NCBI RefSeq assembly: GCF_018873765.1
Contig: NC_057918.1
Span: 69,725,871-69,789,870 of the forward strand
Length of the DNA stretch: 64,000 nucleotides
DNA from: Telopea speciosissima
Lineage: Eukaryota > Streptophyta > Magnoliopsida > Proteales > Proteaceae
Direction: 5' to 3'
Shown piece by piece: positions 7,342 to 10,300 of this stretch. A program made the position numbers and the translations under genes. How positions within the stretch are numbered: position 1 is the first letter of the stretch; the number at the start of each line of letters is the position of its first letter. The notes under the pieces were generated by a model. The model was not told the DNA's origin. It worked only from the letters and a program-made list of their open reading frames with translations, and made no database searches.

Positions 7342-10300
7342 TCAGTAACGTAGGTTCCACACTTCTGTCTCGCTGCCCTTTTCTTTCAATGTCTTTGCTC
7401 TAGTTAGAAACTGTTTGTACCACTCTGCTGATAATTTAGGCGTTCTCTCTAATGTATTGAAGTCCACATGATAAAGCCCAAACCGCAATGTATACCCAAA
7501 ACACCATTCAAAATTATCGAGAAGAGACCATATGAAATACCCCCTTACATCAGCTCCATGCCTATGAAAGAGTATGGACTCATGTGAGCACAAGATGCAT
7601 ACCATGTATAGGAAATACTCAAGTGAAAAATGGCAGAAGAATAATAAAAAAGTTATATTAAATCCAAATACCTCATAGCTACTGTCAAGGAATCCAGGTA
7701 GTTGCTCAGGTATTCTACTCTGCTTGAATCATTGAGGAAGTCTTCAATAGAAACATCAGGATTGCTCCCTTGTGGGTATCCTATGCACAAAAATATTGCA
7801 CTCATGTCTATGTACTTGGAGTAAAAAATAAATGTACTTTCAAAGAGGTCATTGATCATTAACTGTTTGATTCTAACTGTTTTATATACAGGATAACTAC
7901 TCAAATGTTTTATACCATTTTCTGTGATGAACATTGGAGTGTTGTTGTATCTTTCTTTCAAGTAGCTGACGATCTTCTCGAGGCCATTAGGAACCACGTG
8001 GAAGCGAGGCATTGCTGTCTTGTGAAGAGAAAATACATGTTTCACAAGGTTATTTGAACTAGTTATCTTTCAAGTGTCATGATTCAAGAATGCTTCCTAA
8101 TGTCAAAGTAATTGTTGTAGACATGAGAAAGTCGTTCTTTAGTTCTTACCGGAACGCCAATAGGGATCCCATTCCTTTCCCCTGTGAGGATTATATTGGC
8201 ATCCCATAACCACTGATGTGTATCATATTGACATTGAGAGAACATGCAGTCCTTGGCATAAAGAGTTGTATAATGATTGATTCCGATAAAATCGAGCTTG
8301 TTCTCTAGTTTCTTTTTTTCTTCTAATGAAAACTTTGGTAACCTCAAACCCAAGAGTCTCTGCATCTCAAGAGGGTATTCACCATAGATAATGGGATCCA
8401 AGAACCTGTAGAAATCAAAATTGAAGAAAAACATTGGAGAAAAACAATCATGAACAACAAACTTATGTGGAGTGAGATACAAAAATTATTTAAAAGGACA
8501 ATTTCCATTGTCCTTGTCAGAACAAATGTTTCTAAAATAGAAAGAGTGAAACTATTTCCATTTGACAAATAGTCAAATGGAATTGCATTTGCAGTACATA
8601 AACCACCATATCCTACCATCATCTATGGTAAAAAACTGTTTGGTAAGTGTTCATATAGACAGTGTCACAATAATGTACTGAAATAATCTTATAACAGAAT
8701 AAAGAAAACCTTGTCTGAATTGATTACCATCCAACAAAAAATGAAAGAGCTTTTTGAACTGCCAATCGGTCTGCTGGAAGATTTCTAAGTGGTTCGTACC
8801 AGTAGGTGTTCATCGCAATCCCAATCAGACCCCCTTGTTCAACCTATGATAGGTAGCAAAGATAAGTTAAATGACTCACAAGAGTTTTATTTCCATATAT
8901 TCCCTGAAGTAGCAAAGTAAATAAAAATTTTGAATAACTTTCAAAAGGATTTTGTGACTATGAAGCCCAACATTAATCCGGCAAATCAAGAACTACCTGA
9001 TAATTTTTTCTATAGATGTCAACAGCTGTTGCATGTGATAATATTACATTGTGTGCTGCAATGTATGGTTCTGTTTTAGAGTCTCCAAATTGACAATCAC
9101 CAAGCGTCTTGGAACAACGACGGGGTGGGTATTGCCCGGTGAGGTAACTGAATAACACCATCAAATTTGGCTCATTTAAGGTCACCCAATACTTCACTCT
9201 ATCTCCAAAAGCTTTGAAACACACATCTGCAAAATATCCAAAGTCTTCCCTGCACTCAAAGGAAAGACAAGTTTTTAGATATATTACAAATTTTGAGTTG
9301 AATTCTATAAACCTTTATCAATGCTTTCTTTCACTCCTATCTTTTAAGGTCGAGATTTTGATGAAGATAGCTCTTTCTTTCTCATCAATCAAATCCATTT
9401 TCATAAAATATGTAATCTTGATGTATGTAACAAGAGATCCAGTTATATGCTTCTGCTCCCTGTCCCTAATTCGTTTCATGGGAAAGAAAAGTTTAATGCT
9501 AGGCAGCTAATTAATAGGTACCAGCAATCACAAACACTAACAACAAAAGTCTGAACTTGTTTGAACCTTCAACTGGTCCAAGCTTGTTATAGTTTTCCTG
9601 AAATTATCACATTAAGTAGACATCCAGAACAAGGGAAAAATAATATAAAAAACTTACTGTATTTGGGAACTCAACCATGATCCATATCGGTCTTCAAGTT
9701 CTTGAGGAATATCAAATTGGAACAATGTAACAAATGGTTGTATCCCTGGATCGATAATAGGAAAAAGGTTACTAGAACTGATTACCACTTTTAGCTCCAA
9801 CAGAACAACAGAAGAATGTATAATAATACAAAGCTTGGGTGTATGAATAATTGCATATGATTACCTTTGTGTACCAGGGCATTTATGAGTTTGTTGTAGA
9901 ATTCAATTCCAGCGGGATTAATCTCTCCAAATCTACCATCTGGTGTTACATATTGATTTTAATTGTCTAACTTCATTTATAACTAGAAGAAGAAGAAGAA
10001 GAAACAAAAGAACTACTATTCCAACTTACTTGGGAGGACTCTTGACCATGAAATGGAGAATCTGTAGGAATCAACTCCAAGTGAATGCATTAGCTCCACA
10101 TCTTCCTATTTGATTAGGTGTTGTTATCATCATTAGAAAAACGTAAAAAGACCCCATTTGGGGAGAGGGATGGGGGGGGGGGGGGGGGAGAACAAATGGA
10201 AGTTTAAACTGATTCAATTGTTTGAAGGAACCAAAATACTTTAAATGATGTGGGCAGGTGATCTATGCTTTCCTCTGTTAGGTTGGAATCCCATTGACAA

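Follow-up and report, generated by a model that had tools for sequence, protein, structure and literature searches.

Intact GH1 β-glucosidase genes of Telopea speciosissima with glutamine in place of the conserved glycone-site histidine

A tandem array of GH1 genes with an altered glycone residue

Within a 64,000-nucleotide stretch of the genome of Telopea speciosissima (hereafter the window; positions 69725871–69789870 of its contig, in an assembly of 823 Mb and 1287 contigs), a small tandem array of family GH1 genes is located on the minus strand. Its three intact copies, A, B and C, all encode Gln at the position where GH1 enzymes carry a His that contacts the bound glucose; a fourth copy, D, is a pseudogene that encodes His. 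Copy A (7342–16186) encodes a protein of 518 amino acids in 12 exons (16186–16052, 15337–15271, 11521–11463, 10105–10030, 9939–9865, 9745–9658, 9249–8997, 8843–8728, 8405–8150, 8018–7916, 7780–7672 and 7561–7342); all of its introns are of the GT-AG type, and the reading frame contains no internal stop. The protein matches PF00232 over profile positions 3–450 of 453 (E = 9.9e-151), and such whole-barrel homology, together with the presence of both catalytic Glu residues, establishes membership in GH1. Copies B (20912–28163; 518 amino acids) and C (34014–44695; 517 amino acids) are likewise built of 12 exons, bounded by AG and GT splice sites, and have no internal stop, and their proteins are 93% and 91% identical to that of copy A, respectively.

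The substituted residue is encoded by exon 6, which reads FQFDIP in copy A (9658–9745, bounded by AG and GT splice sites), FQFDIP in copy B (23206–23293) and LQYDIP in copy C (36276–36363). The codon is CAA in every case: at 9719–9717 for Gln147 of A, at 23267–23265 for Gln148 of B and at 36337–36335 for Gln146 of C. All three residues align with His148 of the rice enzyme Os4BGlu18. Exon coordinates, codons and alignment thus agree with a sequence-only reading of this locus, according to which all intact copies carry Gln here. The same reading had taken the replaced His for a contact of glucose O3, and the Os4BGlu18 structure bears this out, as Nε2 of His148 forms a hydrogen bond of 2.9 Å with O3 of the bound gluconolactone (PMC7817009). 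This His is called completely conserved, or invariant, in GH1 in PMC6522968, and its usual glycone role is also given in PMC4013033 and PMC7356692.

The glycone site was compared using the list of eleven residues given in the Os4BGlu18 paper (PMC7817009). By alignment, the ten residues other than His148 (Q46, N193, E194, N335, Y337, E408, W457, E464, W465 and F473) are all kept in A, B and C, and none of the eleven positions differs among the three copies. The catalytic pair is intact, with the acid/base E193 (in NEP) and the nucleophile E408 (in ENG) in copy A and the same residues in B and C. The three proteins therefore lack the His contacting O3 that belongs to the canonical GH1 glycone site and conform to this site at the remaining ten positions. 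A sequencing or assembly error at the codon was considered and is unlikely, since the same CAA is found in three distinct copies that differ pairwise at 4.4–5.0% of coding sites. General decay of the three genes, which the sequence-only reading had already discounted, was rejected because the other glycone-site residues are intact, and the open genes, canonical splice sites and preserved catalytic residues likewise rule it out.

Occurrence of glutamine among GH1 genes

In the Telopea genome, at least 98 GH1 matches were listed (40 of the exon-7 type including A–D, 53 of the last exon and five short ones; these counts are lower bounds). The DNA beside all 40 exon-7 hits was examined and exon 6 was located in 39 cases; about 20 of the last-exon hits stand without a listed exon-7 hit in their vicinity, and exon 6 of those loci falls outside the count. 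Among the matches listed, 36 of the 39 readable exons encode His and three encode Gln, the latter being copies A, B and C only. Outside the A–D array all 35 readable exons encode His, and the Gln in A–C is therefore more than scatter; many close homologues with Gln, which would speak against a specific change, are not present among the Telopea genes that were read. Some of the GH1 loci read contain stops and may be pseudogenes. One exon-7 hit on the same chromosome (L023) has no recognisable exon 6 in the 7.2 kb examined around it and possibly represents a decayed gene.

In bacteria, His was observed in 31 of 31 readable GH1 loci out of 32 (L048–L079, of which L079 does not cover the site). 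This sample represents one phylum, around a Chloroflexi record: a peptide-pattern scan gave one locus, which was used as the centre of a family search. Among the rice GH1 proteins surveyed in PMC1781453, only the predicted protein Os1bglu5 has Gln at the position of maize H142, that is, at the same glycone position as A–C; Os1bglu5 has Tyr at the equivalent of maize W465, whereas A–C keep Trp. Beyond this rice survey, no other direct precedent for Gln at the site was found among the matches listed in our literature searches. Given the prediction for Os1bglu5, Gln at this position is rare, though not unheard of.

Evolutionary history of the substitution

Exons 4–12 of copy D occupy 58372–61152. 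The reading frame is interrupted by TAA stops in exons 5 and 9, and exon 12 is frameshifted by the loss of 1 nt. Its exon 6 (60708–60795) encodes FHLDIP, with the His codon CAC at 60769–60767. The earlier description of D as a pseudogene with His stands in these respects; the gene is not truncated, however, since exons 1–3 lie past the window end (window-equivalent 73891–70329) and D is full length. Adjoining D beyond the window end is paralogue F (L010 4050–9263 and L011 1–1822), a more distant gene than A–D, about 66% identical to copy A, which retains His in the sequence INHYDLP.

The codon at the site is CAT in both outgroups, F and L018. Because of this, and because all paralogues read outside the array have His, His is very probably the ancestral state, as the sequence-only reading had supposed; the His of copy D and the uniform state of the bacterial sample support it as well. 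One transversion is enough to convert CAC or CAT to CAA. The reverse scenario, in which His newly arose in D by reversion, was considered and is disfavoured by the 35 readable paralogues outside the array, all with His; most of the tree topologies tested below would allow it.

On a protein tree of exons 6–7 from 39 genes, built with the site included, Gln requires a single change (clade support 99/87). In the tree of whole coding sequences, D branches first with a weak support of 87.6/79, or of 86.6/72 without the site codon. The D-first tree is the best one when this codon is left out (0.82 in the approximately unbiased, AU, test), and of 12 alternatives in which D is nested among A–C, 10 were not rejected by this test (AU up to 0.35). 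Exons 1–6 alone place C first (86/76); exon 7 alone and exons 8–12 alone place D first (83.8/77 and 79.4/62, respectively). Shared sites fall into blocks that unite A with D and B with C at about 9.6–9.0 kb, and A with C and B with D at about 8.4–8.1 kb (within 7342–10105 and the corresponding stretches of the other copies), so that the copies are mosaics. This switching of partners suggests gene conversion within the array. A single origin of the His-to-Gln change is likely, and two origins, or a spread via conversion, are possible. Of the earlier proposal that Gln was fixed in the surviving copies, the observation holds, as Gln is seen only in the three intact genes; a single fixation is favoured and, in view of the AU tests and the mosaic structure, not proven.

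The mosaic copies also bear on the main rival to a functional re-tuning of the -1 subsite, namely that the swap is near-neutral. According to this explanation, Nε2 of Gln would replace Nε2 of His, the bond to O3 would be kept, and A–C would be ordinary β-glucosidases in which the residue changed by drift in a small tandem array, maybe helped by conversion. A neutral allele could spread among mosaic genes, a single transversion would suffice, and the ten other glycone residues are kept. The effect of the swap could be mild, given that Gln can bring an amide donor close to the position of His Nε2, and Gln is likewise predicted for Os1bglu5 (PMC1781453). We consider near-neutrality rather unlikely, though it deserves to be weighed seriously.

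Pairwise identity among the array copies is 94–96% in coding sequence and 92–94% in introns 4–11. A remnant of a fifth copy, fragment E (4349–4696, minus strand), holds partial exons 11–12 only and has FDW where FEW is expected. Non-GH1 sequence at 529–1203 and at about 6181–6700 seems, by eye, to recur next to array copies; a Pfam search with the open reading frame (ORF) at 529–1203 gave no match. Intron 3 of copy C holds a reverse-transcriptase-like ORF on the plus strand at 37645–37992 (RVT_3, E = 4.1e-13). An Rfam scan found nothing.

Predicted effects on glycone and aglycone binding

The H150A variant of the Sulfolobus solfataricus β-glycosidase, for which kinetics are given in PMC6522968, is like A–C without the conserved His; it is a laboratory-made Ala variant, whereas A–C are natural genes with Gln. 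On aryl glucosides its kcat was kept or raised and its Km increased 3.2- to 27-fold; for 4-nitrophenyl glucoside the mutation raised both kcat (437 to 806 per s) and Km (0.94 to 23.9 mM), and pKa1 of the enzyme shifted from 3.41 to 5.29 (PMC6522968). These kinetics indicate that in the Sulfolobus enzyme the His is important for affinity and for the environment of the nucleophile, yet dispensable for the turnover of aryl glucosides.

We favour, with a probability of about 0.5, the explanation that A–C are secreted members of the Os4BGlu18/BGLU18-like group and catalytically competent as retaining β-glucosidases, their -1 subsite having been re-tuned by the change from His to Gln. Secretion is suggested by a hydrophobic N-terminus read by eye. 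By analogy, the replaced residue would contact glucose O3 and influence O2 and the nucleophile; Gln would still form a hydrogen bond with O3, though one that is weaker and uncharged, and glucose would be bound less tightly, with a higher Km. For aryl or phenolic glucosides that carry a good leaving group, turnover would be largely retained; activity on oligosaccharides would drop more, so that phenolic glucosides would be favoured, and the pH profile would shift on its acid side. The effect of Gln is expected to be smaller than that of Ala, as the amide would remain available as a hydrogen-bond donor, and since the His is not needed for aryl glucoside turnover in the Sulfolobus enzyme, we would expect A–C to be functional enzymes that hold glucose more loosely. 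A changed sugar binding in these proteins is plausible. The glycone site, at which only one of the eleven residues listed for Os4BGlu18 has changed, supports this explanation, as do pairwise ratios of nonsynonymous to synonymous substitution rates (dN/dS) below 1, namely 0.31 for A–B, 0.35 for B–C and 0.80 for A–C.

Several points weigh on the other side. The ratio of 0.80 between A and C is close to relaxed, and the kinetic analogy comes from an archaeal enzyme in which Ala rather than Gln replaces the His. The same H150A variant lost efficiency on 4-nitrophenyl glucoside (kcat/Km from 439 to 33.7), and its kcat fell on 2-nitrophenyl galactoside (from 295 to 135), lactose (from 711 to 36) and cellobiose (from 275 to 30), the kcat/Km on cellobiose going from 8.3 to 0.06 (PMC6522968). 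The residue evidently matters, and an enzyme without the His may be poor on real substrates.

One alternative is a loss of hydrolase function, with A–C as pseudoenzymes or as hydrolases of a non-glycoside, similar to the soybean hydroxyisourate hydrolase. The latter is a GH1-related plant protein that has lost conserved glucose-binding residues and has HENG as its nucleophile motif (PMC1781453), whereas A–C have TENG and a change in one of the eleven glycone residues. They therefore do not share its combination of HENG with the loss of these residues. By alignment, domain 1 of PDB 8in1 has Tyr at the site and Asp in place of the acid/base Glu, and the dN/dS of 0.80 between A and C also fits a loss of function. 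Degenerate GH1 domains usually lose a catalytic Glu as well, whereas in A–C both catalytic Glu residues and the other glycone residues are intact, and we regard loss of function as very unlikely.

Another alternative is a new glycone specificity, in which the pocket would have adapted to C2- or C3-modified sugars (2-deoxy sugars, acylated sugars or those with other substituents) or would favour transfer over hydrolysis. For 4-nitrophenyl 2-deoxyglucoside, H150A has a kcat/Km of 10.1, compared with 1.5 in the unmutated enzyme, and its turnover of a 2-fluoro inhibitor is accelerated 23-fold (PMC6522968). The other contacts of O3 and O4 (Q45, W465 and E464 of copy A) are unchanged, which argues for a pocket that is still glucose-shaped; we regard this alternative as quite improbable.

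The aglycone side was compared with Os4BGlu18 (PDB 7d6a/7d6b), a rice monolignol β-glucosidase that is the best-scoring solved relative among the best 60 of 193 PDB matches (65.5% identity to copy A). A–C agree with it in both catalytic residues and in every listed glycone residue except His148, and they differ from it in aglycone residues, including Y265, H201 and T380. M378 is kept in A–C, Y265 is replaced by Asn, H201 by Phe or Leu and T380 by Arg or His, and F381 is kept only in copy A. Nine aglycone positions were considered, eight from the list in the Os4BGlu18 paper and L370 from its comparison with SghA (PMC7817009). Five of the nine vary among A–C; over the aligned mature proteins as a whole, the figure is 58 of 493 columns (hypergeometric P = 0.0017). 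The differing aglycone positions are residues 148, 200, 207, 380 and 381 of copy A and their equivalents in B and C, e.g., Phe, Met and Trp at 381. This pattern is compatible with one altered glycone site common to copies whose aglycone preferences are diverging, and under the favoured re-tuning of the -1 subsite the diversified pockets may set which phenolic glucosides each enzyme uses. On the opposite side, aglycone positions vary even within monolignol β-glucosidases (PMC7817009), and the variation may only reflect weak or relaxed constraint. At residue 382 of copy A (exon 10, 8018–7916) and its equivalents, His is found in A–C and Tyr in D, F, L018 and Os4BGlu18; this second change common to the three Gln copies lies next to two aglycone residues.

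A more far-reaching possibility, improbable in our estimation, is that A–C form a natural duplicated GH1 subgroup with a new -1 subsite for C2/C3-altered glucosides or for transfer, the aglycone pockets having diversified among the copies into a set of related enzymes. The role of the His was probed by mutation in the work described in PMC6522968, and A–C constitute a natural test of the same residue. Three intact natural genes without the His, together with a broken copy and close paralogues that have it, represent a ready comparison set that addresses the role of this residue in sugar binding, nucleophile pKa and glycone choice, as well as how its loss is accommodated when an enzyme evolves.
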